Shown here: one piece after another, positions 4,176 through 55,266 of the stretch
Layout: each line of letters begins with the position of its first letter
How positions within the stretch are numbered: position 1 is the stretch's first letter
Source: Cladocopium goreaui
Taxonomy: Eukaryota; Sar; Dinophyceae; Suessiales; Symbiodiniaceae
Direction of reading: 5' to 3'
DNA length: 64,000 nt
NCBI GenBank assembly: GCA_947184155.2
Contig: CAMXCT020000815.1
Location: 91,943 to 155,942, forward strand
Made by a program: the position numbers and the translations under genes
The notes under the pieces: model-generated
The model's input: only the letters and a program-made list of their open reading frames with translations
What the model was told of the DNA's origin: nothing
Databases searched by the model: none

Positions 4176-4179
4176 GGGT

Positions 4180-5850
4180 AATATGATGGTAATATGATAG
4201 TAATATGATAGTAATATGATGGTAATATGATAGTAATATGATGGCAAGTTGATAGTAATATGATAGTAATATGATGGTAATATGATAGTAATATAATGGT
4301 AATATGATAATATGATGGTAAGATGATAGTAATATGATAAATATGATGGTAATATGCAATATGATGGTAATATGATGGTAATATGATGGTAATATGATAG
4401 TAATATGATAGTAATATGATGGTAATATGATGGTAATACGATGGTAATACGATGGTAATATGAGAGTAATATGATGGTGATATGATGGTAATATGATGGT
4501 AATATGAGAGTAATATGATGGTAATATGATAGTAATATGATGGCAATTTGATAGTAATATGATGGTAATATGATGGTAATATGATGGTAATATGATAGTA
4601 ATATGATGGTAATATGATGGTAATAAGATGGTAATATGATGGTGATATGATGGTAATATGATGGTAATATGATGGTAATACGATGGTAATATGAGAGTAA
4701 TATGATGGTGATATGATGGTAATATGATGGTAATATGAGAGTAATATGATGGTAATATGATAGTAATATGATGGCAATTTGATAGTAATATGATGGTAAT
4801 ATGATGGTAATATGATGGTAATATGATAGTAATATGATGGTAATATGATGGTAATAAGATGGTAATATGATGGTGATATGATGGTAATATGATGGTAATA
4901 TGATGGTAATACGATGGTAATATGAGAGTAATATGATGGTGATATGATGGTAATATGATGGTAATATGAGAGTAATATGATGGTAATATGATAGTAATAT
5001 GATGGCAATATGATGGTAATATGAGAATAATATGATGGTGATATGATAGTAATATGATGGTAATATGATGGTAATATGATGGTAATATGATGGTAATATG
5101 ATGGTAATACGATAGCAATATGATAGTAATATGATGGTAATATGAACGTAATATGATGGTAATATGATAGTAATATGATAGTAATATAATGGTAATATGA
5201 TAGTAATATGATGGTAATATGATAGTAATATGATGGTAATATGATGGTAAGATGATAGTAATATGTGGTAATATGATGGTAATATGATGGTAATATGATG
5301 GTAATCTGATAGTAATATGATAGTAATATGATGGTAATATGATAGTAATATGATGGTAATATGATGGTAATACGATGGTAATATGATAGTAATATGATGT
5401 TAATATGATGGTAATATGATGGTAATATGATAGTAATATGATGGTAATATGATAGTAATATGATGGTAATATGATAGTAATATGATGGTAATATGATGGT
5501 AAGATGATAGTAATATGTGGTAATATGATGGTAATATGATGGTAATATGATGGTAATATGATAATAATATGATGGTAATATGATGGTAATATGATGGTAA
5601 TATGATGGTAATCTGATAGTAATATGATAGTAATATGATGGTAATATGATAGTAATATGATGGTAATATGATGGTAAGATGATAGTAATATGATGGTAAT
5701 ATGATAGTAATATGATGGTAATATGATGGTAATACGATGGTAATATGAGAGTAATATGATGGTAATATGATAGTAATATGATGTTAATATAATGGTAATA
5801 CGATGGTAATATGAGAGTAATATGATGGTAATATGATAGTAATATGTGTA
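4180..5850. repeat. 11-bp satellite with 231-bp higher-order repeats
   Basis: Units of 11 bp (ATGATGGTAAT and the variant ATGATAGTAAT) run for about 1.67 kb. Variant units recur in a fixed order: the CGATGGTAATATGAGAG block is at 4450, 4681 and 4912, a spacing of exactly 231 bp or 21 units. On the - strand the unit contains no stop codon in any frame, so a frame of 651 codons stays open across the array and reads as an 11-residue repeat (YYHHITIILPS). This follows from the unit and is not a gene. Confidence 0.95.
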
Positions 5851-7286: not shown

Positions 7287-8642
7287 GTGACCTTGACTTA
7301 ACATCAGTGGATGCGGAGCGCAAACTTGCAGATTTTCGAAAAATCAGCCACTTTTCTGAGAAAGAATATTCTAGGAATGGGAATATGACATTTCTCAAAG
7401 GTCAATTTCTGCACGTTGGTCCCCAAGTTTGATGATCAGTACCCCTTTGATGAGACATGTTCTCGTTCGGTTGGTTGATTGCAGGCAACAGCGCTTTTCG
7501 TGGCAATTTGAGCCAAGTGAACACCAGACTCAGTGACTTACAGCGGAAGAACTTCAAATAAACATGAGAGCATACTGGTCACGCTACATACTTGTAGGTT
7601 TCAGAATTGGACATGCTATAGCATCTTAGTTTACTGTAGTTATATATACATTGAGTCTCCACATTTGACATGGATACACAATCGGTGAAAAAGAGAGCTT
7701 TCGTTGTTAATTAGCCATGTGGCGGTCAGACCTTCCTTTTTGGTCGGTGATATCAGTTATATCTTAGCCCTCACGGCTAAATCCAATCAGATCACCGATC
7801 ACCACGGGTGTGATCCAACAGGTATGTACTGGCCTACCTGTTGGATGACGTGTCTCGGCACCAAAAAAAGTGCTCAGAGCTGGACCACGATTTCGGAAAG
7901 AGATCGAAGAAACTGAGGTGCCAGAGCTCCGACAGTCTGTCCTGTTGATTTGGCAGGGAGGTTCCTAGGATGCAATGGCACCATGGCACCTGCAACCTGT
8001 AATCTGGAACCAGACAAGCGAATCTGAGAATTTGGTTCCGGCTCCACAGTCAACTTCGTCCCTAAGGCACACCAGTTGCTACTTGTAACTTGTACTGTCG
8101 TAGTTGTATACCTCTGTTTTCTAGATGTTCGCATGTCATGCTGCTTCCCACTCACACTCTTCTCCTCCTGTATAGCGGGTATGTGCGCTCAGTCAGTCTG
8201 CATAAGCTAAGGATCCTTGTTGGAATACCTGCATGAGGACCTACATGAGTGGGCGCAAGGAAAATTGCTTCAATGGCGAACAAGGCACCGACCAGTCCGA
8301 TTCCATGAAACTGAAGTAACTCTAAGTGATTCTAAGTGTCTCTAAGTGTCTCTAAGTGTTACGGTAGTGTTGCAGATCATTTCTGAAAAGCAGGGCTGGA
8401 ACATTGTCCATCGAGACAATTTTCGAATTTGGCCATGATTCAGTGAAGCCCTGAGGGTCCAAGGCTCATGGCAACAGTGCTTATCGAACATCATGCAACA
8501 CATTCTGTGCTTCGGCAAGCGGCAGTGCCATGAACACACCCACACAGAGGTTTGAAAAAACCAAGGGCTCTCAATCTGATTCTGTGCAAGTGGTTCGATC
8601 CCATTATTGCCTACTGTTTATGTCATGTGCGGATGCATTTCA
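7287..8642. other. No confident gene; small hairpin
   Basis: Open frames here are short and unconvincing. A hairpin at about 7811-7848 pairs ATCCAACAGGTA with TACCTGTTGGAT. A 10-bp repeat (TCTAAGTGTC) occurs three to four times near 8320-8360. Confidence 0.3.
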
Positions 8643-8779
8643 ATGTCAACCCCGGATGAGACTAAACCATGGTTTATTAATCAGGGGGTACTCCTCCAAT
8701 AGTCATAATCTTATACTTAAATGGTACCCTCCCAATTCAACAGCCGTAAACGGGGTTTATGAAAATCCAGGGTTGACAT
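8643..8779. mobile_element. MITE-like inverted-repeat element, family C copy 1
   Basis: The ends are ATGTCAACCCCGGAT and the complement of ATGTCAACCCTGGAT. The copy at 41612-41740 is the same element in the opposite orientation, and 55163-55266 is a copy lacking its right end. The flank is CA on the left and TA on the right, which fits a decayed TA duplication. No open frame spans it. Confidence 0.7.
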
Positions 8780-22015: not shown

Positions 22016-22259
22016 ACTTGGGAATTCTTCACAACTCCAATGTCTTGCCTGTTTCAAGTGATGACGCCTTCATAATGAAGCCTACAATGCGAAGGGAGAA
22101 GACCTGGATCTGAGGCAAAAGAAACGGAAGAGGTGCGCCAGCGCTGGTTGTGCCGAGAGCATTCTCAAGGTATTCAGACGTCATCCAGACTTTATAGATC
22201 AAGACAGTCTTGCCAACAGTTTTGGTTTGGCATTCGGGGGAAATTTACCATGCAATATA

Positions 22260-22350
22260 GCCTCTGGTTATGACTAACATAGCCATGGTATAGATGGCCC
22301 ATAAAAAAATGGTAAATGCTAGGACATTCCAGCATTCATTGTTGGTTGAT
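22260..22350. repeat. Left terminal inverted repeat of the island
   Basis: About 90 bp, inverted relative to 24134-24263. An outer block (CTGGTTATGACTAACATAGC) and an inner block (GGACATTCCAGCATTCATTG) align with the right end. The left copy lacks about 40 bp of the middle that the right copy keeps. The first ATG of the first island ORF is at its inner edge. Confidence 0.75.
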
Positions 22351-22690
22351 GGAAAACAAACTTTTGGAAATAGAAAAACAAAGAATGGAAATGTTTATGA
22401 ACTTTGAAGATGAAGACGAAGAAGAGTATGATGAAGAATATAAAGAACAATTCCGACAAATGACAGACGAAGAGATTGAACGGCATATCGGTCTGGAAAA
22501 AGTGAGAAATGTAATGGAAGGATTTGACAGAGAACACGGTATAGACAAAATACGACGGATGATATACGAAGTAAGAAATGAAGACAAGAAAGAAGACCCT
22601 GAAGATGAAAAATATGAAAGTGATAGTAGTGAAACACAACGAATGAAACGATTACAGTGGATACAGGACAACAGAAAACCTAAAAACTGA
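22349..22690 (+). CDS. Acidic small protein of unknown function (island ORF 1)
   Basis: 113 residues starting MENKLLEIEKQRMEMF. The frame is also open upstream to an ATG at 22316, but that ATG lies within the inverted repeat, so 22349 is preferred. The product is very rich in Glu and Asp (for example DEDEEEYDEEYKEQF), predicted mostly helical, with no cysteine motif, signal peptide or membrane segment. The lysine codons are mostly AAA and overall codon use is AT-biased, unlike host exons. No family is recognised. It is the first gene of the island and is followed after 15 nt by the first copy of the AT-rich leader motif. Confidence 0.55.
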   Translation: MENKLLEIEKQRMEMFMNFEDEDEEEYDEEYKEQFRQMTDEEIERHIGLEKVRNVMEGFDREHGIDKIRRMIYEVRNEDKKEDPEDEKYESDSSETQRMKRLQWIQDNRKPKN

Positions 22691-22705
22691 ATAAGACCCC
22701 AAAAC

Positions 22706-22750
22706 TACTTAAAGAAAAAAATACCTATATAATATATATGAAATAAGAGG
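22706..22750 (+). promoter_or_regulatory. AT-rich leader motif before island ORF 2
   Basis: TACTTAAAGAAAAAA followed by CTATATAA and AATAAGAGG, directly before an ATG. A second copy with the same first 15 bases and the same order of elements is at 23410-23446, also directly before an ATG. Recurrence at the same place before two genes suggests a promoter or leader, as in large DNA viruses with short AT-rich intergenic promoters. That function is inferred. Confidence 0.55.
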
Positions 22751-23227
22751 ATGCTATTTACTTATAAAAACTGTGGATGTTGTAAAAAAGAAATGATTAA
22801 CCTAAAGGTTTTACTAAACAATATGTTTCCCGCTGGAATTTGTGATGAGATATGTGGTTACAACCTTCAATGTTCAAAATGTAAAGACTTAACCGATAGG
22901 GAGCGTAGATACATAGATTTCAATTATCATTTTGACTATTTTAATGATAAAAAACTGACGAGAGCAGAAAAGACAATCTATTTCTTTAAAAGAAGGATGG
23001 AGAAATCACCAATTTATTTATCCAACACGAACCGAACAAACACTCGGCAAATGAAAAGAGAAATTTATGTTTTAATGGATACATTCAAACTCAAGCAAGA
23101 ATTCAAACACGACAAACTGTTCTTAATGGCGATTAAGTCTTTTGTGAAAAGGGAGTGGAAAACTACCTATCACCTCCTTAAAAACTTTCACGACCTTACA
23201 ATACCTTACATATATGAAGTATTGTAA
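22751..23227 (+). CDS. Cysteine-cluster protein of unknown function (island ORF 2)
   Basis: 158 residues starting MLFTYKNCGCCKKEMINL. Cysteines fall at about positions 8, 10, 11, 31, 35, 41 and 44; the last four (C-x3-C-x5-C-x2-C) could bind zinc. The rest is basic and rich in Lys, Phe and Tyr, ending FHDLTIPYIYEVL. Its stop overlaps by 14 nt the ATG of the next frame at 23214, a compact viral-style arrangement. Codon use is strongly AT-biased. I do not recognise a family. No transposase, integrase or capsid motif is visible. Confidence 0.6.
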   Translation: MLFTYKNCGCCKKEMINLKVLLNNMFPAGICDEICGYNLQCSKCKDLTDRERRYIDFNYHFDYFNDKKLTRAEKTIYFFKRRMEKSPIYLSNTNRTNTRQMKREIYVLMDTFKLKQEFKHDKLFLMAIKSFVKREWKTTYHLLKNFHDLTIPYIYEVL

Positions 23228-23416
23228 GAACAAGCGGGAGTGGTGGTTTCCTCAAAACGATTGGACTTATACATTTAGAAACAGGGAATTCAAGGTAAAC
23301 GACATGTTGGAAATCTATTTTTGCGTGAATACATCGAAGAACTTTTCAATGGTTATGAAAAATATTTTAATGTAGAAGAAATAAAAGAGTATCTACAAAA
23401 AGTGGTAAATACTTAA
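23214..23416 (+). pseudogene. Frameshifted small protein gene (island ORF 3)
   Basis: The frame from 23214 runs 53 codons (MKYCKNKREWWFPQNDWTYT onward) to a stop at 23373. A second frame continues the protein-like sequence (REYIEELFNGYEKYFNVEEI) to a stop at 23414-23416. The switch corresponds to one missing base, most simply in the T5 run near 23315-23325. The final TAA lies within the leader motif of the next gene. A sequencing error in the homopolymer would look the same. Confidence 0.5.
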
Positions 23417-23446
23417 AGAAAAAATAACTATATATAATAAGAGAAA
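23410..23446 (+). promoter_or_regulatory. AT-rich leader motif before island ORF 4
   Basis: TACTTAAAGAAAAAA, then CTATATATAATAAGAG, directly before the ATG at 23447. It shares its first 15 bases and its layout with 22706-22750. Confidence 0.55.
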
Positions 23447-23937
23447 ATGAGTAGAGCAAAAATTGAGGTTATAGATATAGGTAATATTGGTTTATATGCT
23501 GACTTTGGTAGTGAAAGCGAGGACGATGACTGGGAAAGAAAAGCAATAGAAAAAGAAGATGAAGAGATTAGAGACTTTGTGAAGTGTCATCCTATGCCTT
23601 CACCAGATGATGAGGAAGGAGAAAAGTTTGGAAGAATGTAATTGATAGGGTGAAAAACGACCAAGGAATAAATGCTATGATAATATATTCATTCGTTAAC
23701 TTTGACATTATCAAAAGAATGTATGAAAACCTCACGGATAAAACAGTAATCATTGAATGTGGTAAGAAACTTAACCGTGATGGAAAATGGGATGTTATGG
23801 CAATAAATCAAACTCTATCAGCATTAGCAATAGATGAACTAAACGATACAAACAAACCTATCACAAGTCAAGTCAGGATAATTGAACACTGGTGGGATGG
23901 AATAGGAAACTGGAAAGCTTACATGATTAATTCATAA
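23447..23937 (+). pseudogene. Two-part gene, probably frameshifted (island ORF 4)
   Basis: The first frame (23447-23641, 64 codons) starts MSRAKIEVIDIGNIGLYADF and becomes acidic (ESEDDDWERK). A second frame, open from about 23614 to 23937, carries NDQGINAMIIYSFVNFDIIK and ends WWDGIGNWKAYMINS. It has no ATG near its start. Moving into it one base early near 23620-23630 would fuse the two, so a one-base loss in a single gene of about 160 codons is the simplest reading. Two separate genes remain possible. No family is recognised. Confidence 0.5.
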
Positions 23938-24133
23938 TATCTTAATAAAATAGATTATGAAGTAGTCATCCACCCAAACACAAACAAAACCCCCAACAGT
24001 CTAAACAAATCCTACCCCCATTCAATCCAAACATCAACAGTGAAAGTTCAGGGCAAAATAGTCCCAAAACCCCCACCACATGAAACATCAAAGATAAGGA
24101 AGAAACATGGAACATAAACCTAAAAACCATAAC
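23938..24133 (+). other. Tail of the island; in-frame open segment after a stop
   Basis: In the frame of ORF 4, past its TAA at 23935-23937, the sequence stays open for about 58 codons to TAA at 24115-24117. It is basic and rich in Pro, Asn and Ser (VVIHPNTNKTPNSLN). It has no start codon of its own. The + strand is purine-rich before this point and C/A-rich after it. Confidence 0.3.
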
Positions 24134-24263
24134 AACCAACAATGAACGCTGGAATGTCCCAGCATCCCCCTTTTACCATTTTTTCCCATTTATAGATGAT
24201 TTTCCCATTAAAACCTCCATTGATAATGGATTTTCCATGGCTATGTTAGTCATGACCAGATGG
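24134..24263. repeat. Right terminal inverted repeat of the island
   Basis: About 130 bp. Read inward from 24263 it gives CTGGTCATGACTAACATAGC, then an AAAATCC/ATGGG-rich middle, then GGACATTCCAGCGTTCATTG. The middle resembles the interior of family A hairpins. Confidence 0.75.
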
Positions 24264-24420
24264 TACTTAAGACTGAGATTTTCGGAGCGAATCTGTGGTC
24301 CAAGACCAAAGTAAGTATAGCTTCTAATCACTTTGGTGACAGGGATGATCAGCCCCAAAAAACACCCCGGCCACAGCAGAACGTCACAGTTTCATACAGT
24401 TTCATCTTAGCCGGAACAGT

Positions 24421-25760: not shown

Positions 25761-28700
25761 TCAGGCCCCTTGATAGTCTGGCAGGAAAGACCATCGCGTG
25801 ACCTTTGCCGACGCACTCCATGCATCAGCAAGCCAAGTCTTGTCCTTGGCAGTGCAGGCAGCGGGTTCACGCCACCCTTCAAAATGGGCACGGGCTTTAA
25901 GCCCACGAATGAGTGCCACTACCATGCTACGGCACAGCGCGCTGGGGTATTCCTTAGCAGCGGCTGTCCGAAAGAGGCCACGCTCATTGCGCCCAGCAAG
26001 CGCGGCCGTAGGGCGAGTGCGCCACGTCTCTGCTCCTTCACGTAGCGCCGTAGCCACCACTGGTGCAGCACCCAAATTCAATGCCCGCAAGCAAGTAGGC
26101 TTAACTCCGGCCGCTCCGTACTCATACTGCTCCACATAGTGTCGGACCGCATCCGGTAGGGCCATAAGCCATTGCTGATGAGCCTGTGTGCGCCAGACGG
26201 AGGCACGCTCATCTTGTGAATCAGGCTGTTGTTGATGTTCCCAAGGGTGCTCCATGATCGCACCACCTCCATTGGTGACCACCGCCACTTCAATGGTCCA
26301 GGTATTCATCAACAATTGTGTGCCCATAGAGCTCTGCTTTAATTCCTGCCCTGTGCATTCAGGCAGGCTCCATGGAAGAGCAGCCGATCTCAGCGGCCTC
26401 GGCCCAGCTCCATCATCCAGCTGGATGTGCCGCGCGGCCGACCATGTCTCACACGGTGGGCCAGCAAGAACACCTGCAATAAGGCCACCTTGTGCAAAAC
26501 GTCGAACGTAGTCATAGTTCTCTCCATTGGCCAGGTTACCCAGCTCCGGATGGACAGCGGTATCCAGGGAGAGCATACGAATGGTGACTCCCGGCCACAA
26601 ATGATGCCCAATGTGCTCAAGCCACCAATGACAATCACCCACCCTTCTGCGCCCACTAAAAAGGTGGAAAATCCAAATGATCCGCTGATCTCCTTCTCGA
26701 CATACAGGTACTCCTCGGCAAAGAGGTACATGTAGAGGACGTTGAAGGATAGAGCAAAGCAAAGAGTGCTGATCGCGAATAGAATCCAAAATGACCTCCC
26801 GCACACGCACGGTGACCAGATCTTGCGCGTCCTTCTCGACAATGTGCTGCGGGCAGAAGGCACCATCCATGCGGCGTCGCCAGCACACCAGCTTACCAAC
26901 GGGTGACTGAAAAACAATTTGACTTATGGCCTCCAAACAGCGTCCAAAAAATTCCACCGAGAGATGAGCAAATCGAGAAAAACGAAGGTCATCATGCATC
27001 CAAACAGCAAGAGCCCACGCGCCAAGACCCTCTGCCGCTGGAGGAAGACCATGACCATCCGCCAAATTTGTCAAGCGCCAAAGGATAGGATCAGGATCAA
27101 CAAATGTCTGCAAGGATGGATCTCGAAGAACTGCATCAAAGGCCATCTTGCAGTTGTGCACCCAAGCATCGTCGATCGGGTCAATCAAACCTTCATTGCG
27201 GCACGCCTGCAACCACCGGGCATCCGCATCCAATCGAGTCTCACATTGAGTCTCCATCTGCGAGAGCACGTGAGGAATAACGGTGGCAGGCATTCGCAAG
27301 TGTCTGTCATCCTGTTTGGTTTCAACAATAGGCGCAATAACCTCCAAAGGTTCGTGCATCCACGTGAGTCTTTCATAACATCCATTCCGATGTCGTCGGC
27401 TCTGATGAAGATGGATTTGCAGTCGATTCACCGTCCAACAACATGTCCAACAAGCCGGGCATACTGTGGAGGTCATGAATTTCCTTTCCTCGCTAGGCTC
27501 ACCATGTGCACTCCAGAGGTGATTTTGCCATTGTCGGACCGAAAGAAAGGTCTTTGCGCACCAGCGGCATTCATAATTGGGGGCGGTTACCACCGATGCC
27601 GGATCATCCAGAGCAAAAGTAACTCCTCCCTTCAGCAGCTGATGATGCAAAGTTTGGTGTGCCGTCACAGCATCGCCAATGACCTTGTTCTGCAGCAATG
27701 CTCTCTTGTAGAGTCGGCGAACAAAACGAGGACCATCGTCACGTCGATCAGCAAACCATTGAAGCAGTATGGATCGAGAGGCCGTCATGGGATCAAACGC
27801 AATGAGTGTGGCATCCATGGAAATGAGCCATGTAAGCGCCTGTCGGATTGCCTTCCACCAAGAGCAGGATACCTCATCAGGGGCTGTAACCATTTCAATG
27901 ATCTGAGTCGGGGCATCAATGAAGAGATGGAATGCAAAAAGAAGACGATGCTTTGCCAGACGTAGTTCAATCGATGGCATCTGCCAACTCATCAATAGAT
28001 GGACGTCCGACAATTGATTGTGCGCCCAGAAGCCATTGCCCACGACCGTACGGATCCATTTCAAATATGTTGTATGAAGCCGTTGGACCTGTTGGGCAGT
28101 GAGCAGTGGCCAATTCCCAGCACCGTGCAGAAGCACAGGCATGAGAAGTGCATCAAGAAGACGAAGACGCACATTGACACCAATGTACCTGTTGCGCAAG
28201 ATCAACTTGGTAATCTGGCGATAAGCTAAGCCAGCACGGCTCACCCGATATCTGATCTCAGCATCAATGCTTCCATCTGCTTGAAAACAGGTGCCAAGGT
28301 GCTCATACACAGGCACGCATCGAACATGTTGTCCCAAAGGAGGAACAGAAATGCGAGCAAAATTGGCGACCAAACATTCACGACGACATGCAGGCGCATC
28401 AGGACCACGAAAGGCCAACACCACTTCCGTTTTACGGGGCTTCAAATTGAGAGTCAGGCCATAGGATGCGCAAACCTCAATCGTGGTTTGTAAAGTCCAA
28501 GCGATGGTCGAAACCAGATCATTGGCCTTGAGTGCAGCAACCGGTACGGCAAGATCATCCACCCAGGCAACCGGAGCTGCCCGCAGTCCCAAATGCGAGA
28601 ATGCAGCTTGTAGCGGCAAGAACTGATCCAACTGGGTCTGAAAGTCTTGCAATACAACTGCCATGAGGCTGTTGAAAGCAACATCTGCTAAGGGGCTGCC

Positions 28701-31700
28701 AGGTCGACTTCCACGTTCTGTTTGATGAACGGCATCAGAAGCACCAAGCGCATACCAAGTAAAACAATGCCCATCCCGAATGAGTCTTGCTGCTGGCTGA
28801 AGAAGCGGGGCTGAATCAATGGGAGGCTCCTTTGCCAATTTGGTACCCAGCACGGTCAAGTCAATGCCATTGTCGGTCAAGACTTGTCGCAGTTTGGGAT
28901 GCAGGGTTTCAGCGCCACCAAATATCAATTGCCGGACCATGGAGTGAAAGGCACTTCGGATGTCCACGAAAATGATGGCGGAGGAAACCACATGCTGCGC
29001 CGCAAGCTGAGTGAAGGCACGCACATACATTGTGGCAAACAACGTGGAACTTCGTCGAAAGCCACCCAGTTGAAGCGGCAGCCGGAAATGCTCCAAGGCC
29101 GGTAAGAATTGGCCACGCAGGTGCGAGTGGACCAACTTACCAATGCCGTCGATCAACATGATCCCTCTCATGCCATCGATTTTCTGACTCACCTCTTTCT
29201 TGGCAATCGGGTGGAGGATTCCTCCCTTCCCCTGAATGGGTTCTGCGCCCAAGATCCACACCTTCATCATGAAGGCGTGGAGAATGTCAGAATGTTGTCG
29301 GCAAGCATGCTGCAATGCCACTGGCGAAACTAAGTCCATGCCTGATGCCTTGCCTGTCTTGATGCGGCAGCCCAATGTTTCCACGGCAAAACGTGAGGGC
29401 AAAGCTTCCAAACAAATTTGCAGAGGAATATCATCCAAAGCCTGGTGTTGGGCGGCATGGCATTGTTGAAGAAGTTCGCCATACGGCACGCAATGTCCAG
29501 CTTCCAATGCATCGTAATGTGCAAATTGGTCTTCCAAGGACGGGCCGGTACATCTGAGATTGGATTTTCTCTTACTTCTCCACCTGGGAAGTAAAGGCTG
29601 CAAGGTTTTCCAGAGTGACTGTGCATTCTTGGAGGACTCATATCCTGCTTGCGCAGCCAAGCTTTCGTAAAACATGCAGTCATCTGTGCGAACAGCCTGC
29701 ACGACTCTTGGTGCCAGATCTTCATATGCCCAAAGATGCCATGCGTACGCACGGTCACAGTCACGTCTCCATCCTTGAAAAGATCGGGTCACCTGATGGG
29801 GTTGACGCCATGCAGCAAATAGCTCTCGAAGCAGGCCACGACAATGATGACGGCGTGCAGCATTGAGACATTTCCAATGGTGCCTCTTTGCATCAATCAA
29901 CTGCTTGGTATCATCAGAAAGATGACGCTTGCGCCAAATTCTGGGTTTTGGGTTCCACTGCTTGATCCAATGTTGCAATCGTGCAGCATGCGTGTGAACA
30001 TCAGTCGCCCATGTGACCTCCAGGGGGGCATCCTGCACCTTGCTTCCACGGGTGTGACGAGGTCTTCGGTCAGCTGGGAAGAACTCAAGCTGAAGCTCAG
30101 CACAAACACAATCATGATCACGGCGATGAAGAGCCAAATCAATGTGTGTGCTAACCCATGTGGACACGCCATCATGTGGAAAGTTGTTGGAAACTGCAAT
30201 ATAGTCCAAACGAGCTGATGTGCCTTTGGGATGTGTCCAAGTGGGAGCCGGTCCATCATGACACTCCGCAAAGGTCTGAGGCAGAAAAAGATCATGGTTG
30301 GCGAGCCACGTGTGAAATTGAGCACCTTTGCTGTTCTCATCATCAGCTTGATGTGGACCAATGCAGGGGGATGTCACACTGCCAACCCGACTGTTGGCAT
30401 CGGTCAGCATAACCATTGGCCATTGACGATAGGCAGCAGGTATTGCTGCAGTCGTGGCATCCCAAAACGTCTGCAGGACGTCCTCTTCATCATCCGAAGG
30501 AGCATGCACCACTAAGAAGAGAAGTTTGCATCCAGGATGTGCCCATCGGACCAACAGACGGCGCGAGGTGGCATGCAAGATACGAAGATCAGTCGTATCG
30601 ATATCAATGGTTCCACCAGATGTGGGGATGGATTTGCGCAACCAAAGTTGAATTCCACCTTGTCCACGTGCAGTCGCTGGGCCAGAAAGAACGTGAAACT
30701 GTTGAAAGAACGAGTGCCCGGTCATGCGAGCACGAGTCTCCTGAAGACCAATGACATGAAGACGTTCATTCATGAACTGATCAGCTAAGGCTTCAGCACG
30801 AGCGCCCAAATAACCCGAAGCAAAATCTTGTCCAGGAAACATGGTCATGACATTGGCCGTTGCAAAACGCAACCGAACAGGGTGACTTTCAGGACTGTCT
30901 GGCAAAGCTTGGAAACGACGCAACATTGCAGGATGAAAATCATCAGACGGAGGCATCTGAAACGGTTGCTCCACATTGAATCTCCAGTGCGTTCCCACTA
31001 GGATAGGTGCATCTTCATGATGCCGCACAGATTTCTCGATCAACCAAAGCCATTGACAAGCACATGTATCATTGCCCTGGAACGTGTACATGTCAAACCA
31101 CTCCACAAGAGAGGTGGTAAAAGAATGGTGCTGAAGCGCATGTCGACAAACTGTGTCAGCAGCCTCATTCCAAGGATGACTTTGATGACTTTGGATGTGC
31201 GTCCAATAGATTGGCCACGGAAGTACAACCTCAAGCCAGTGGATCAAAGATCGCAGCACAATGTGAACATCAGAGTTACAATGTGCAGCTTGACATCCTT
31301 GTGCAATATTGGCGGTATGCACACAGTCAAACGCAATCTCGAACCAGGGTTGAACTGCTGGAAGTGAGGCTGCAAGCTGGTGGATCCACAATGCTGCTAA
31401 CACTAGAGCAGTAGCCTCCGCTCTTGGTGCTGTAGCAGAACCAAGGCAAGGAGCACTCATAAATCCACCATGTCGCACGCCATCTTCGGTATGGACGATC
31501 AAAAAGACACCTGCAGCTGCACGGCCACTGGAGCGCCACGCAGATCCATCAGTATAAAAGGTTGCACCGAGAACTTTTTCATCTTGCCAAAGGGGCACAG
31601 CACCAAGTTGTTGCCATGTGGTCTCATGCCACCAAACCTGACTCAGATCAACTGAAGGCCGCAATCCAAGTCCCAATCGTAGTTGCTCACGCAGGAACAA

Positions 31701-34700
31701 AACACGTTGGCAATCAACAGTGGTAAAGCGAGGTGCTGGAATATTCGCTTCAAGGCTGATCACTTTCCGCTGAGCAATGTGTTGAAGCAGGTTCATGTGC
31801 TCATCATCTTCTGAGTCAAGAACCGCTACATGTGCTGTTTCCAAAGCAGTAGTGGCCTGAAGCTGTACCTCACGCTGGATGTGAAAAATCAGATGCATGC
31901 CATGCGTGACATCAAATCGTGGTAGGTCAGTGAGATCACGATCGCCCAACAACGTTCGACAGAGTGCTCTGGGTGGAACTGTGCCACAAATGCCGTCCAA
32001 GTCAATGTAATTTCTCAACTGTGCATGCGAAAGGTCACATGGCGTGGTCAAACATAGCAGCCGTGGATGCCACGGGTCATCCAAGGTGTCGACAATGGCA
32101 ACAACAATCGAGCACATGGTTGGCTGCACATGTTGTACCAAGACAAGATGTGCATGAACTTCAGCCTGCCCATCATGCGGAGTAGGGTGAACAATCACTC
32201 CTGTCAACTCTGCAAAGGGATCCATCCAATCGTCCCAAATCATGACGATCTCATGATACCAGGTTCCAACATTGCCAGTAAGACGCACGTCTCGACATAT
32301 TCCACTGTGAGGTCGTCGGAGGTGATCGGCATACCATGTGGAGATGACAAAAGCCTCAGGAGGGCGCTCCTGCAACTCTTGCTCATTGCTAAATAGCAGC
32401 ATGTGCAAATCATGGATCATCTGTGGTTGCCCTGGAGGAACCGGAACAGCACGGGTGCGAATGGCCGCAATATGCTGCATTTCGTGCTGGACACGTTCAT
32501 GATCTCCATCAACTTTGTCAACAGGGCCATCACTCCCAGGATGTGCTACAGCTGGACAATGCAGCGCTGCTGGCTTTTCTGTCATGGAACTCAAAGGCAT
32601 GGTAGAAGAACTCGTGTCGATCAGTGTAACGTGTTTCACCAAACATGCATCCTCATGTACTTCAGCATGACGAGAGCGGACATCATGTCGTACAAGTCGA
32701 AGTTGGAGCAGGGAGTTGGCTGTGGTTGGCATGACACGTCTTGGAACAAATGGTTCCGAGGAACTTGCAGCCTGACGGTCTCCATGACAATGAGGTGGTC
32801 TGACATGAAGTTCAATACTCGCTGCATCTGGGACATCGTGACGAATAAAACGCTCAAAATGTGCCACACCAGAGCGGGCAGAACACCGCCTTGTTTCACA
32901 GACATGGTTGATGCGCAGGATGTCAATGATATCCTCAGTACACAGCCAACGAGGAACAGAGTAAGCAGCTTGTAGAAGACGATCTTCATGATCACCTTGC
33001 ATTACCGCAGACAAGACAACTGCAGCTTGCGCTTCACGTGGCTTCTGTTCAATCATGACATGCACTGCGTCCAATGTAGTGGTCGCATGAGGAGGTCGAT
33101 GACCAACAATCTTGATTTGCAAGGGATCCGTTCCATGAAGAGTCGACTGCCAAGGCGTAAGCAAATCTTGTCCCCATAAGTGCTTAAAGCTGTCCAATTT
33201 GACCACCCGTGGTGCATTACATTCTGGATGCAATTCATGATGCACGTACCACGTCCAGACATAGAGGATGGGTCCTTCTTCCAGAAATTCCTGCATCGCT
33301 TCTGCCTCAAATGTGTCATCAAGCGGCTCAAACCAATGGTTGTCCATGGGCACCGGGAAGACTCTGAGCGTGGTGTCTTCGGGCACCGTGGTAGTGGATG
33401 TTGAGGTAAATGGTAGCGGAGCAGGAAAAGGAGCAACTGAAGGTCCAGAAGTAAGAGGCTGAACTGTGCTTCCCTGACGCTCAGTGACATGAATCGCCTG
33501 CAACGTATTCATCTGGGAGTCAGGCGGCGGAACACAGACTCGCAAATATGCACCATGCTGCATGACCTGAGGTGCTGCTTGATGAGCAGGCCATACACGA
33601 CCATTGAACTCAACCAAACATGCATCATTTTGCCATGAGCAATATTGCCGCACTCCTGCATAGTGGAGTACACCTTCACGTCCAAGATGTCGAGGCACAC
33701 GATGAACTCTTCTGGTAGCAGCGGGCAATGGGTGGATGCCAGCTGGTGTCAAATGAAAATGCACTTCCACGTCAATGATGACAAGTGCATCCGAGGAAGC
33801 CGTTGGAATGTCCGTCACCGATTGGATGATGAAAGAAAAGTCATCTCGTTGATCTCCCACCATCTGGGTCAAAATCGTGTGAGCTTGCAAGAGACTGGCC
33901 GGGACGATTTCCAGATTTCGTGCAAGCTCCATCAGCATGGGCACACCTGCAGCATTACGCATGAACATATGCAACGGTGGATGCCGAAGCCGATAAAAAT
34001 GACAGTTGAATAACGGTCCAGCAGAATGATCAGGCTCAGCAGATGGAGGAGATGCCGAAGGCGGGTCATCTTCAGGTGGATCCTGATCTCCATCACCAGG
34101 TCCTGTCACAAAGAAGTCCTCACTGTGACCGGTTGGCATGCCATGTGCTGAAACGCCAGAGGTCGAGACTTCACCAGCATGAGCAGCCGCACTTTCCAAG
34201 TTTGGATCATTTGGAATTTGAATTGTAAAGGAATGCCCAGGCCGCATCCGATGGGTGGCATCACCTCCACTTGGCAGCATACGCCATCCATGAAAAATAT
34301 GACATACTCGGCCATAGGGTCCTTGACAAGTTTGCAGAACTTGGGCCGCCTCCAAAATATGGTATCGATTCACCATAGGCGGAAATGAAGCTGCTATTGG
34401 GTGCTCACCAAGCCCATCATGGTCATCCATGTACTGTACTGTCACAAGACCAGAAAATCGGGGTTGATGAAGACCTTGCGCCAAAATCACGTCCAGGGCA
34501 ATGAGTTGATCTGCAGGACCTCTCATTGGCATGGGATTTGGAAGTGTGAAGGCTGTCGGCACGGAGTCATCCAACAGATCACTCCAGGCGTCCATCAAAT
34601 AATCCACCCAATTCGCTCGTTCAGGAGGAAGACGGACAACACGATACTGGTCGTTGTGCAACCTTGTCTCATGATGTAGGTACCATGTACGTACACGTAG

Positions 34701-36653
34701 CCCATCCGACATCAAAGCTGTAGGACTCATCCAAAGGGGGTCCAGAGCTGAGATCATACTGTCAGTAAAGTCATGTGCACGTGCAGGATTTCCAGGCCCA
34801 TGTGCATGAGGTGCATGTGGAGGGTCAGCATGATCTACAGGAATTTGGTGAAAATGCTGAAAACCGTCCATGATACTATACTTGGCCATTGGGGCAAAGC
34901 GATCACAACTGGCATCACCAGGAGCTTTGATCCAAGGCAAAACAGGCCATGCAACGGGAACATGCGGCCTTCGGGCTTGAAGTTTCAGAACTTCAGGCGT
35001 CAATTCCGTGCAATCATCCACAAGCGCCCATGGCTTACCAGGCCATTCATACAACGCTCGATGGGGAACAACGAGTCTGTGCAACTCGTGACCACTGAAA
35101 ACCTCCACCGCATCATCAAAGCGAACATGAAACGGTCTTGTTCGACGTGACGTGCTACTCTTCAATGGAGTCTTCACCTTTCTCACATGCGGCATGGGGC
35201 ATTGCAACTTGAAAGCAAGTGCATGAGCCGATTCAATGGCCTTCCATTCTGACATGAAGCATCCCTCATTCATGATAGAGTGGTTCCATTTCTGAACAAC
35301 AAAGTCAAAATCGGTCGCAACATCGACCGTTTGCAACTGCCCTGGGTGGTTGTACGCATTTGTCACTGACCACCGGGCCCACCAAAAGACGGCAGCGCAG
35401 ACTGATCTCCATCTGTCATGCCTGAGTCGGCCTTGTCGGCATTGACTCGTTGTCTTTTGGCACGTTGTTCTTCTTGCACCAATTCCTCTGTCTGAGTTTG
35501 CAACTGAGACATTGTCTCGACCAAACTGGTCAGACCCGTTGCAATGCGGTGAGCAGCTGCCATAGGAACATCTCTCAGCTCCTCCTCGTCGGAGACCACA
35601 ACCGTGCCAGCCTTCTCGTCGACCGGCACCATGTTCGCCGCCTCGAGCTTGCTGGCATTCATGATGTCCCGCGCCACCACAAATGCCTCCTTGGCTTGCT
35701 GAATCTTCTCGGTCAGCTGGGCCTTCCTGTGTTTGGAAGCTGGCTGTGTGTCCTTGCCAAAGCTTGAGGCTCTCGGCAAGAAAAGATCTCCACTGAGAAT
35801 GCAGCTGAGCTCGAGCTTGGACTGCCTTGTCGTAATCTTGTCGAGCATTGTCCATAGCGTTCACCGCTTGGTGCATAGTCTTCTTGTCGTGCTTGGCAAC
35901 TTTCGCAATGGCATCCTTCAGATCGGTTTGAATATCGTCTGGAAGTTCGCCTCCTTGATCTTGATGTTTCTGCAGCTTCTGCACGAGGGCTCGATACTTC
36001 ACAATCTCCTCGGGTGGCGGTGTCAACGCCGGCCCAGACGAAGTGGTCGTCGTGGGTTGAGCAAGATTGGGAGCCACTGGCGCAGGCGTAGAACCCGATC
36101 CCGGAGGCGGTGTGAGGGGTGGCGGAAGAGGAGGCTGCTGAGGAAAAGGCTGGGCCATCTGCTCCATTGCCTGCTGAGCAGCCTTTTTTCCCTTGCGGGA
36201 CTTCTTTCGCCCTTGTCCTTGTCGCTGACGAGGACTCTGAGCTCGACCATATGTCGTCGAATCCACCCATGGTTCTTGAGGCCACTGCCACTGTTGCGAA
36301 TACGCCTGATTGCCTTGTTGCCTCCGAGGCGATTGAGCACGTCCTGACTGGGCTTGCTGTCCAAAGTCCGGGGTCCCATAGGTCCACGAGGCTTTGCAGT
36401 CCCCACAGTGCCAGGCATTCTTCCTGTTTTTGCGCCCACACGGGCAGAACCATGGAGCAGCTGTCATGGCGTTGTTGATGGAACGCAGCAGTTGTGGATC
36501 TTTTGAGTGATGTGCCGCAAGACGTTGACGAAGCTGCTTCAGCTTCACCGCAGGCAACACAACCAGCCCAGAACGATGCAAAAACCACTGTCTTCTCGCC
36601 GATGCTCTTTGTCGTCTCCAACGCCTCCTGCACGTCGGCGTAATTGTCCCCAC
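25761..36653 (-). CDS. LINE polyprotein: RNase H, endonuclease, RT, zinc fingers, methyltransferase-like domain
   Basis: One frame is open for 3,630 codons (first codon GTG). Approximate residues: zinc ribbon 66-88 (WFCPCGRKN...HCGDC); three diverged copies of a domain of unknown function marked by TWYLHH (653), TWYVHH (1131) and TWYADH (1436); RNase H 1690-1835 (YTDGSAW, AEATALV, FDC, NEAAD); AP-type endonuclease 1926-2190 (FATANVMT, GLQETR, TDANSRVGS, ARLDYIAV, DHDCV); reverse transcriptase 2450-2785 (FVDIRSAF, RGSRPGSPLAD, WVDDLA, YEHLG); C2H2-type fingers 3026-3092; C-terminal domain 3325-3600 (FHLFSGRRRVGD, GPPCETWS, MEHPWE). All key RT, RNase H and endonuclease acids are present. RNase H precedes the endonuclease and RT, unlike I- or R1-type LINEs. 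The true ORF2 probably starts after the ORF1 stop at 35363, for example at the ATG at 35273. Residues ~310-430 are the wrong frame of ORF1. Confidence 0.9.
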   Translation of the reverse strand: MGTITPTCRRRWRRQRASARRQWFLHRSGLVVLPAVKLKQLRQRLAAHHSKDPQLLRSINNAMTAAPWFCPCGRKNRKNAWHCGDCKASWTYGTPDFGQQAQSGRAQSPRRQQGNQAYSQQWQWPQEPWVDSTTYGRAQSPRQRQGQGRKKSRKGKKAAQQAMEQMAQPFPQQPPLPPPLTPPPGSGSTPAPVAPNLAQPTTTTSSGPALTPPPEEIVKYRALVQKLQKHQDQGGELPDDIQTDLKDAIAKVAKHDKKTMHQAVNAMDNARQDYDKAVQARAQLHSQWRSFLAESLKLWQGHTASFQTQEGPADREDSASQGGICGGAGHHECQQARGGEHGAGRREGWHGCGLRRGGAERCSYGSCSPHCNGSDQFGRDNVSVANSDRGIGARRTTCQKTTSQCRQGRLRHDRWRSVCAAVFWWARWSVTNAYNHPGQLQTVDVATDFDFVVQKWNHSIMNEGCFMSEWKAIESAHALAFKLQCPMPHVRKVKTPLKSSTSRRTRPFHVRFDDAVEVFSGHELHRLVVPHRALYEWPGKPWALVDDCTELTPEVLKLQARRPHVPVAWPVLPWIKAPGDASCDRFAPMAKYSIMDGFQHFHQIPVDHADPPHAPHAHGPGNPARAHDFTDSMISALDPLWMSPTALMSDGLRVRTWYLHHETRLHNDQYRVVRLPPERANWVDYLMDAWSDLLDDSVPTAFTLPNPMPMRGPADQLIALDVILAQGLHQPRFSGLVTVQYMDDHDGLGEHPIAASFPPMVNRYHILEAAQVLQTCQGPYGRVCHIFHGWRMLPSGGDATHRMRPGHSFTIQIPNDPNLESAAAHAGEVSTSGVSAHGMPTGHSEDFFVTGPGDGDQDPPEDDPPSASPPSAEPDHSAGPLFNCHFYRLRHPPLHMFMRNAAGVPMLMELARNLEIVPASLLQAHTILTQMVGDQRDDFSFIIQSVTDIPTASSDALVIIDVEVHFHLTPAGIHPLPAATRRVHRVPRHLGREGVLHYAGVRQYCSWQNDACLVEFNGRVWPAHQAAPQVMQHGAYLRVCVPPPDSQMNTLQAIHVTERQGSTVQPLTSGPSVAPFPAPLPFTSTSTTTVPEDTTLRVFPVPMDNHWFEPLDDTFEAEAMQEFLEEGPILYVWTWYVHHELHPECNAPRVVKLDSFKHLWGQDLLTPWQSTLHGTDPLQIKIVGHRPPHATTTLDAVHVMIEQKPREAQAAVVLSAVMQGDHEDRLLQAAYSVPRWLCTEDIIDILRINHVCETRRCSARSGVAHFERFIRHDVPDAASIELHVRPPHCHGDRQAASSSEPFVPRRVMPTTANSLLQLRLVRHDVRSRHAEVHEDACLVKHVTLIDTSSSTMPLSSMTEKPAALHCPAVAHPGSDGPVDKVDGDHERVQHEMQHIAAIRTRAVPVPPGQPQMIHDLHMLLFSNEQELQERPPEAFVISTWYADHLRRPHSGICRDVRLTGNVGTWYHEIVMIWDDWMDPFAELTGVIVHPTPHDGQAEVHAHLVLVQHVQPTMCSIVVAIVDTLDDPWHPRLLCLTTPCDLSHAQLRNYIDLDGICGTVPPRALCRTLLGDRDLTDLPRFDVTHGMHLIFHIQREVQLQATTALETAHVAVLDSEDDEHMNLLQHIAQRKVISLEANIPAPRFTTVDCQRVLFLREQLRLGLGLRPSVDLSQVWWHETTWQQLGAVPLWQDEKVLGATFYTDGSAWRSSGRAAAGVFLIVHTEDGVRHGGFMSAPCLGSATAPRAEATALVLAALWIHQLAASLPAVQPWFEIAFDCVHTANIAQGCQAAHCNSDVHIVLRSLIHWLEVVLPWPIYWTHIQSHQSHPWNEAADTVCRHALQHHSFTTSLVEWFDMYTFQGNDTCACQWLWLIEKSVRHHEDAPILVGTHWRFNVEQPFQMPPSDDFHPAMLRRFQALPDSPESHPVRLRFATANVMTMFPGQDFASGYLGARAEALADQFMNERLHVIGLQETRARMTGHSFFQQFHVLSGPATARGQGGIQLWLRKSIPTSGGTIDIDTTDLRILHATSRRLLVRWAHPGCKLLFLVVHAPSDDEEDVLQTFWDATTAAIPAAYRQWPMVMLTDANSRVGSVTSPCIGPHQADDENSKGAQFHTWLANHDLFLPQTFAECHDGPAPTWTHPKGTSARLDYIAVSNNFPHDGVSTWVSTHIDLALHRRDHDCVCAELQLEFFPADRRPRHTRGSKVQDAPLEVTWATDVHTHAARLQHWIKQWNPKPRIWRKRHLSDDTKQLIDAKRHHWKCLNAARRHHCRGLLRELFAAWRQPHQVTRSFQGWRRDCDRAYAWHLWAYEDLAPRVVQAVRTDDCMFYESLAAQAGYESSKNAQSLWKTLQPLLPRWRSKRKSNLRCTGPSLEDQFAHYDALEAGHCVPYGELLQQCHAAQHQALDDIPLQICLEALPSRFAVETLGCRIKTGKASGMDLVSPVALQHACRQHSDILHAFMMKVWILGAEPIQGKGGILHPIAKKEVSQKIDGMRGIMLIDGIGKLVHSHLRGQFLPALEHFRLPLQLGGFRRSSTLFATMYVRAFTQLAAQHVVSSAIIFVDIRSAFHSMVRQLIFGGAETLHPKLRQVLTDNGIDLTVLGTKLAKEPPIDSAPLLQPAARLIRDGHCFTWYALGASDAVHQTERGSRPGSPLADVAFNSLMAVVLQDFQTQLDQFLPLQAAFSHLGLRAAPVAWVDDLAVPVAALKANDLVSTIAWTLQTTIEVCASYGLTLNLKPRKTEVVLAFRGPDAPACRRECLVANFARISVPPLGQHVRCVPVYEHLGTCFQADGSIDAEIRYRVSRAGLAYRQITKLILRNRYIGVNVRLRLLDALLMPVLLHGAGNWPLLTAQQVQRLHTTYLKWIRTVVGNGFWAHNQLSDVHLLMSWQMPSIELRLAKHRLLFAFHLFIDAPTQIIEMVTAPDEVSCSWWKAIRQALTWLISMDATLIAFDPMTASRSILLQWFADRRDDGPRFVRRLYKRALLQNKVIGDAVTAHQTLHHQLLKGGVTFALDDPASVVTAPNYECRWCAKTFLSVRQWQNHLWSAHGEPSEERKFMTSTVCPACWTCCWTVNRLQIHLHQSRRHRNGCYERLTWMHEPLEVIAPIVETKQDDRHLRMPATVIPHVLSQMETQCETRLDADARWLQACRNEGLIDPIDDAWVHNCKMAFDAVLRDPSLQTFVDPDPILWRLTNLADGHGLPPAAEGLGAWALAVWMHDDLRFSRFAHLSVEFFGRCLEAISQIVFQSPVGKLVCWRRRMDGAFCPQHIVEKDAQDLVTVRVREVILDSIRDQHSLLCSILQRPLHVPLCRGVPVCREGDQRIIWIFHLFSGRRRVGDCHWWLEHIGHHLWPGVTIRMLSLDTAVHPELGNLANGENYDYVRRFAQGGLIAGVLAGPPCETWSAARHIQLDDGAGPRPLRSAALPWSLPECTGQELKQSSMGTQLLMNTWTIEVAVVTNGGGAIMEHPWEHQQQPDSQDERASVWRTQAHQQWLMALPDAVRHYVEQYEYGAAGVKPTCLRALNLGAAPVVATALREGAETWRTRPTAALAGRNERGLFRTAAAKEYPSALCRSMVVALIRGLKARAHFEGWREPAACTAKDKTWLADAWSASAKVTRWSFLPDYQGA
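35363..36653 (-). pseudogene. LINE ORF1 (gag-like), split by one inserted base
   Basis: From the zinc ribbon to about position 35725, ORF1 reads in the frame of the long polyprotein (RSFLAESLKLWQGHTASFQT). From there the protein-like sequence continues in the +1 frame: QLTEKIQQAKEAFVVARDIM, then TSLVETMSQLQTQTEELVQE, ending PSFGGPGGQ and TGA at 35363-35365. One extra G in the GAAGGCCC run (+ strand 35720-35727) explains the switch. The product has a zinc ribbon, a basic Gln/Arg-rich part, a Pro-rich linker and a coiled coil, as expected of an RNA-binding nucleocapsid-like protein. Without the insertion ORF1 would lie in +1 relative to ORF2, so ORF2 would need -1 frameshifting or reinitiation. 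Confidence 0.6.
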
Positions 36654-41611: not shown

Positions 41612-41740
41612 ATGTCAACCCTGGATTAAGAAACCCCAAACGGTTATTTAATTGGGAAGGTACCATTTAAGTATCAAATAATGACTATTGGGGGAATACT
41701 AATTAATAAACCATGGTTTAGTCTCATCCGGGGTTGACAT
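41612..41740. mobile_element. MITE-like inverted-repeat element, family C copy 2
   Basis: The ends ATGTCAACCCTGGAT and (inverted) ATGTCAACCCCGGAT have TA directly outside both (41610-41611 and 41741-41742). It is the inverse orientation of the copy at 8643. This copy shows the TA duplication most clearly. Confidence 0.75.
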
Positions 41741-41747
41741 TAATGGT

Positions 41748-55162: not shown

Positions 55163-55266
55163 ATGTCAACGCTGGATGAATAAACCCCTAGGCTGTTTAA
55201 TTGGGAGGGTACCATGTACGTATTAGATTATGACTATTGGAGGAGTACCCCCCAAATTAATAAACT
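55163..55266. mobile_element. MITE-like element, family C copy 3, right end lost
   Basis: TA then ATGTCAACGCTGGATGAAT at the left. The core TTTAATTGGGAGGGTACCAT and GACTATTGGAGGAGTACCCC match copies 1 and 2. The right terminal repeat is absent. Confidence 0.65.

Follow-up and report, generated by a model that had tools for sequence, protein, structure and literature searches.

The AT-rich island at positions 22258 to 24265 of the 64,000-nucleotide stretch of Cladocopium goreaui DNA analysed here (the window, which is part of a 208-kb contig in a genome of 1.17 Gb) consists of two nested elements, a viral element within a resident host MITE, and not of a single composite. The viral element is very probably an endogenous Polinton-like virus of the rve-integrase type that inserted into the MITE, the copy in the window being an internal-deletion derivative. 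Directly shown are the nesting itself, the empty MITE relatives, the inverted ends, a target-site duplication (TSD) with five of six bases equal, the repeated interior, the missing middle and, in this assembly, the broken reading frames. What an earlier note on this DNA had taken for a new system is thereby clearly recognisable as the remnant of a virus lying inside a MITE.

A viral element nested in a resident MITE

The features described in the earlier note, namely long inverted repeats, TA at the edges, an AT-rich interior, + strand ORFs and a repeated AT-rich leader, were all recovered. With the left end as query, BLAST found two right-hand arms in the window, an inner (E 3e-9) and an outer one (E 6e-7). 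The outer inverted repeat (22258-22288 and 24235-24265; 31 nt, 90% complementary) has TA at both of its edges (22258-22259 and 24264-24265), and the inner one (22307-22348 and 24133-24174) measures 42 nt at 86%. GC content, calculated in 100-bp bins, was 21-41% across 22300 to 24199 and 38-52% outside. Long inverted arms thus exist as described, but alignment with the MITE assigns the two pairs to two different elements.

The outer arms belong to an element with the features of a MITE, which is short and non-coding, with terminal inverted repeats (TIRs, here the 31-nt arms), a TA duplication and three further copies within the window. Its left half (22258..22303) aligns with these copies and ends with the six bases of the left TSD copy, and its right half (24185..24265) begins with the six bases of the right one. 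When the two flanks were joined by script, the resulting empty MITE of about 117 bp aligned across the insertion gap with three unoccupied relatives, at about 15.6, 18.2 and 58.2 kb of the window. Between the two halves, the whole virus-derived element (22304..24184, 1881 bp, + strand) runs from AAAAAATGGTAAA at 22304 to TTTACCATTTTTT at 24184. Its left terminal piece (22304..22348, +) is an inverted copy of the right end, where the outer part of the TIR covers 24133..24184 (+). The flanking TSD copies, CCCATA (22298..22303) and CCCATT (24185..24190), are 6 bp long and differ by one base, and an A run permits a 1-bp shift of the border. The MITE was present first; the viral element, equipped with TIRs of its own, inserted into it and is flanked by a separate 6-bp TSD.

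It had been proposed that viral genes are moved by host MITE ends that enclose them, or that the MITE was brought in by a virus. TA edges and outer inverted arms do enclose the whole island, but the interior is bounded by TIRs and a TSD of its own, three insert-free MITE relatives align across the site and, of the 40 copies scored, none matches the 2-kb query before base 92 except the window itself and short end repeats. Moreover, the copy on contig C358 interrupts a member of the same MITE family at another point. Such a composite is therefore highly improbable, and the idea that the MITE ends move the viral genes has to be abandoned. The ends are nevertheless those of mobile elements, with MITE arms outside and viral TIRs inside; as for a second copy with the same ends, the inner ends recur in other copies, whereas the outer ones belong to the MITE. 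The probability of an assembly chimera is close to nil, given the TSD at the site, the empty MITE relatives in the same window and the many copies that other contigs carry between different flanks.

Longer copies and their predicted gene content

The sequence that we take to be the dinoflagellate spliced leader has 172 exact copies in the genome against 0 for its reversed control; the host is therefore a dinoflagellate, as had been stated. Spliced-leader relics were found neither in the window nor in 52 loci searched for them.

The 2-kb island used as query matched 39 other places, the main matches at 83-90% identity; this and the other copy numbers given here are lower bounds, since 40 of 1413 candidates were scored for this query, 40 of 199 for the TIR ends and 91 of 286 candidate genome places for the capsid candidate. 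Sequence was retrieved for comparison from 20 of the 39. In 15 of these, similarity to the longest copy extends 0.9-4 kb leftward beyond the segment that the window retains, often as far as the retrieved sequence reaches, and in the other five it begins within about 0.4 kb of the window's point. In the longer copies, the window segment forms the right-hand terminus of a Polinton-like virus, and TIR hits of opposite orientation lie 22.5 kb (C5939), 26.3 kb (C3079) and 11.7 kb (C358) apart. The interior is therefore repeated in the genome, yet it is viral and not ordinary dinoflagellate DNA.

Several observations were made on individual copies. The 11.7-kb copy on C358 (loci L017 and L043) sits in the same host MITE family as the window copy, at another position. 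At about 300-3000 of L052 and 5500-7000 of C446, stretches of 41-54% GC with ORFs that are not virus-like lie inside viral copies and are possible nested host or transposon insertions. Three contig pairs (L033/L034, L044/L045 and L025/L026) have identical flanks at the viral end, which may be segmental duplications or uncollapsed haplotypes.

On C4357, taken in its genomic orientation, ORFs continue for more than 15 kb, in an order that includes a probable polymerase, an ATPase, a methylase-like ORF, a putative minor capsid protein, a lipase-like ORF, the capsid candidate, an integrase and genes A, B and C. The A32-type ATPase matched Pfam Pox_A32 (4.1e-8, above cut-off) and a PHROG terminase (3.8e-9), the cytosine-methylase-like ORF reached 0.00015, just under the cut-off, and the putative minor capsid protein and the lipase-like ORF were both assigned by eye. 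The left part of the C5939 copy holds three more ORFs: one is GIY-YIG-like (0.0022, below cut-off), one matches a zinc finger (1.2e-5) and one, which we interpret as the beginning of the polymerase gene, matches Endonuclease_7 (4.8e-6). Searches of phages by tblastn returned one weak match for the ATPase and one for the window gene B ORF, and the putative minor capsid protein had no match in the PDB. Relatives in the protein database numbered 45 for the capsid candidate, 70 for gene B and 312 for the integrase, nearly all of them unnamed. As predicted from these ORFs, the gene set of the longer copies is that of a Polinton-like virus, in agreement with the virus-derived interior claimed at the outset.

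The integrase is split on C4357 and 313 aa long on C446. Many of the 120 listed among its 312 relatives carry PF00665 (rve). In two relatives tested, rve was matched at 3.5e-6 and 1.9e-7, both below the curated cut-off, and one relative matched IS481 transposases at 1.8e-12, also below cut-off; for the one integrase of these copies that was tested, Pfam gave nothing at E 0.1. Against the PDB, only six weak matches were obtained (best E 0.023), five of them named integrase and one Pol polyprotein. By way of these relatives, the longer copies can be credited with a retroviral-type (rve) integrase.

The polymerase ORF is probably a pPolB and the 466-aa protein probably the capsid protein, labels drawn from size, place, conservation and motifs. 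Three motifs, which we take to be those of polymerase B, were recognised by eye in the former, which had no match in Pfam or NCBIfam and only a chance match in the PDB. For the latter, no capsid match was found in Pfam, PHROGs, NCBIfam or the PDB (a chance match), nor in phages by tblastn. Six of 33 relatives of the capsid candidate matched RSN1_7TM in Pfam (best 5.5e-4), a match that was taken as spurious. Among 96 match rows for this protein, 43 are full-length (466 residues) and free of stops, at 96-98% identity. Between C4357 and C446, the first 119 capsid codons gave a dN of 0.02 and a dS of 0.21, and gene C a dN of 0.10 and a dS of 0.18. The near-identical copies without stops and the low dN/dS suggest that the capsid gene was under selection and that the family expanded not long ago.

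Two other origins of the interior were weighed against this gene content. A fragment of a giant virus (Nucleocytoviricota), the link made in the earlier note, would have AT-rich compact genes and an A32-type ATPase, although the latter is also found in Polinton-like viruses; beyond this, nothing was found in its favour. The repeated ends with 6-bp TSDs, the rve-type integrase and the 22-26 kb TIR span fit Polinton-like viruses, as do the genes of the longer copies, and IMG/VR gave no relatives for the three queries used (integrase, capsid candidate and gene B). A giant virus is considered extremely unlikely. We also consider very unlikely a cut-and-paste transposon of the Ginger2/Tdd type, which would have an integrase-type transposase, no virus stage and the other genes as passengers. 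Its integrase family is common to such transposons (PMC2836005) and the capsid label is that of an unproven candidate, but the span, the ATPase, the polymerase motifs and several more viral-type ORFs in the longer copies argue against it and for a Polinton-like virus.

The window copy and other short derivatives

The window copy consists of 45 bp of the left end joined to the last 1.84 kb of the right end, and is 90% identical to the C4357 copy across the common part. The deletion junction, between the left end and gene A, lies at 22348..22349, and a match across it like that of the window was seen in none of the remaining 39 copies (1413 candidates, of which 40 were scored). Only remnants of genes A, B and C are held by this copy: the back part of gene A, its front being lost (22349..22690, +; 163 aa on C4357), where the window ORF (22316-22690) starts within the TIR, a frameshifted gene B (22751..23375, +; 217 aa on C4357, with 70 relatives listed, unnamed) and a frameshifted gene C (23447..23937, +; 162 aa on C4357). 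Polymerase, integrase and capsid genes are absent, so that the copy is not autonomous.

ORFs of 124, 158, 53, 64 and 95 aa are present on the + strand of the interior. The small packed ORFs first described are thus real, but four of the five are fragments of genes B and C, whose lengths in the window and on C4357 differ by numbers that are not multiples of three; the small overlapping ORFs result from these frameshifts. The frameshifts could be assembly errors, and apparent stops and frameshifts in other protist viruses were reported as artefacts in one study (PMC10120064). Apart from one PHROG of unknown function (E 0.022), the five ORFs matched nothing in Pfam and PHROGs, and an Rfam search gave no match. 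Because its genes are broken, the window copy probably yields no working viral protein; at most, its ends may be recognised in trans.

An AT-rich leader occurs twice in the window, ahead of gene B (22707..22737, +) and of gene C (23411..23440, +), with TTAAAG at 22709 and 23413. On C4357, the leader ACTTAAAGAAAAAATACCTATATATA stands 32-39 nt ahead of genes A, B and C. The motif precedes the same three genes on C446, and a scan of C4357 (15.8 kb), C446 (19.9 kb), L052 (7 kb) and the window detected it nowhere else. This leader looks like the promoter of the A-B-C gene cluster.

Both ends lie within 5.5 kb of each other in nine of 21 loci (the 20 retrieved and the window), spans that can include later insertions. 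These short two-ended loci are L010, L011, L012, L014, L018, L022, L023, L027 and the window, whose left TIR is too short for the threshold of the locus comparison, where it reads as empty, and which was counted from the inverted-repeat and BLAST evidence. The first mapped position past the left piece differs among the six copies examined (L011, L012, L014, L018, L022 and the window), the resumption point of L022 being less certain, as it falls where several copies diverge anyway. L023 resumes at most 4 bp from the window's point, yet a different sequence precedes it.

Target-site duplications and target word

TSDs were read by eye in the 12 copies with both ends read, the length of the terminal A/T run being allowed to vary from 5 to 7. 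They were identical at all six bases in six copies (L012, L018, L022, L023, C5939 and C3079), in some only if the terminal run is taken as 5 or 7 long, and at five of six in four (L010, L014, C358 and the window), whereas that of L011 is ambiguous and L027 has none. The longer copies show the TIRs and 5-6 bp TSD expected of Polinton-like viruses, at least five of six bases being equal in 10 of the 12 copies. L027 (on C496) has both viral ends without a 6-bp TSD, and a stretch of about 19 bp is common to both of its flanks, at unequal distances from the ends.

CCCA or TGGG was found at the junction in 27 of 34 independent insertions, against 2.5% of window 8-mers under the same rule (CCCA allowed at base 1-2, or TGGG with its first letter at base 1-5), with a slight bias from the TIR-end query, which carried the window's own CCCATT. 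The corresponding binomial tail, 3e-37, assumes independence and the window background. The 34 target sites represent one end per insertion, typed by eye, with identical flanks counted once (C1703/C709, C5416/C662 and C1140/C1450) and L016 excluded, its end being masked. The word was missed at C3079, C358 (where the other end reads CCCATA), C5416/662, C3913, C3590, C1269 and C4780. The viral family seems to prefer one short DNA word for landing, and part of the CCCA/TGGG bias may be regional, because several sites lie in CCCAT-rich repeats. The possibility that CCCAT forms part of the element end was rejected: the two flanks repeat it in direct instead of inverted orientation, CCCATA standing to the left and to the right of the C390 and C5939 copies, and in further copies the flank reads TTTGGG or TCACAG.

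Relation to known viruses and proposed origin

In the parts of the open-licence literature consulted, neither a CCCA target word, among papers on Polinton target sites, nor a short deletion derivative of a Polinton-like virus, among those on non-autonomous or defective Polintons, was found. Mavirus-like EMALEs have an rve integrase. They are likewise integrated small DNA viruses with TIRs and TSDs, but no sequence-specific integration was reported for them (PMC8547959), unlike the CCCA/TGGG bias of the present family.

The element belongs to a known kind, the dinoflagellate endogenous Polinton-like viruses, because such viruses have been published and rve integrases typically produce TSDs of 6 bp (PMC12220804). 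The claim of a new kind of system does not stand, the sequence having many copies here and Polinton-like viruses of dinoflagellates being in print (PMC10120064, PMC12721341). Those with a 'Dino group' capsid (PMC10120064) are likewise high-copy, integrated and of low GC, with TIRs, pPolB and either an rve integrase or a tyrosine recombinase; the consulted part of their description mentions neither short derivatives nor a target word. OmPLV of Oxyrrhis marina (PMC12721341) also has a dinoflagellate host, an A32 ATPase, a capsid, pPolB, TIRs and low GC, but is described with a tyrosine recombinase and no TSDs, in contrast to the rve-type integrase and 6-bp TSDs found here. In cryptophyte Polinton-like viruses with rve-INT, 6-bp TSDs are likewise tied to this integrase, whereas the part of that survey consulted describes no target word comparable to CCCA/TGGG (PMC12220804). 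Elements entered the same survey only if 6-80 kb separated their TIRs, themselves 100 bp-8 kb long, so that a 1.9-kb derivative would be filtered out (PMC12220804). Maverick/Polinton repeats are also present in another Symbiodiniaceae genome, that of Breviolum minutum, where they were studied for DNA modification and chromatin, ends and targets being absent from the consulted part of the description (PMC11071213). Polinton-like viruses of dinoflagellates being in print, the less expected features are the frequent loss of the middle, which leaves short end-bearing derivatives, and the preference for CCCA/TGGG at the insertion site.

In the sequence of events that we propose, a Polinton-like virus would have inserted into the resident host MITE at a CCCATT word, generating the 6-bp duplication, presumably through its retroviral-type integrase. 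The middle, about 20 kb with the polymerase, ATPase, capsid and integrase genes that is missing in comparison with the long copies, may have been lost before integration, a defective genome being integrated in trans, or after it, and the remaining genes of the window copy would then have decayed. A more specific scheme, which we put forward tentatively and hold to be rather unlikely, combines a sequence-specific retroviral-type integrase (CCCANN in either orientation, with a 6-bp TSD) with short end-bearing defective genomes integrated in trans by full-length relatives, host MITEs and CCCAT-rich repeats being the landing sites. If true, this would be a viral counterpart of the autonomous-transposon/MITE pair. 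Since so many copies have legible ends and TSDs and the target word is strong, the specificity of integration and the way in which short defective forms of Polinton-like viruses arise become testable in a dinoflagellate. The present case also suggests that a class of short derivatives is missed by surveys requiring at least 6 kb between TIRs.

Other features of the window

One open frame of 3630 codons occupies 25761-36653 (-), with matches to RNase H (3.1e-7) and reverse transcriptase (6.2e-4, below cut-off), and was read as a large LINE-like retroelement encoded by this one ORF. A further family of short inverted repeats is present at 8642-8747, 41640-41741 and 55191-55252, with stretches 85-98% complementary in copies tens of kb apart. 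Two long tandem arrays, at 755-2816 (a 50-bp unit, about 41 copies) and 4177-5846 (the 11-bp unit GGTAATATGAT, about 153 copies), display a strong strand asymmetry, with a GC skew of up to 0.92.
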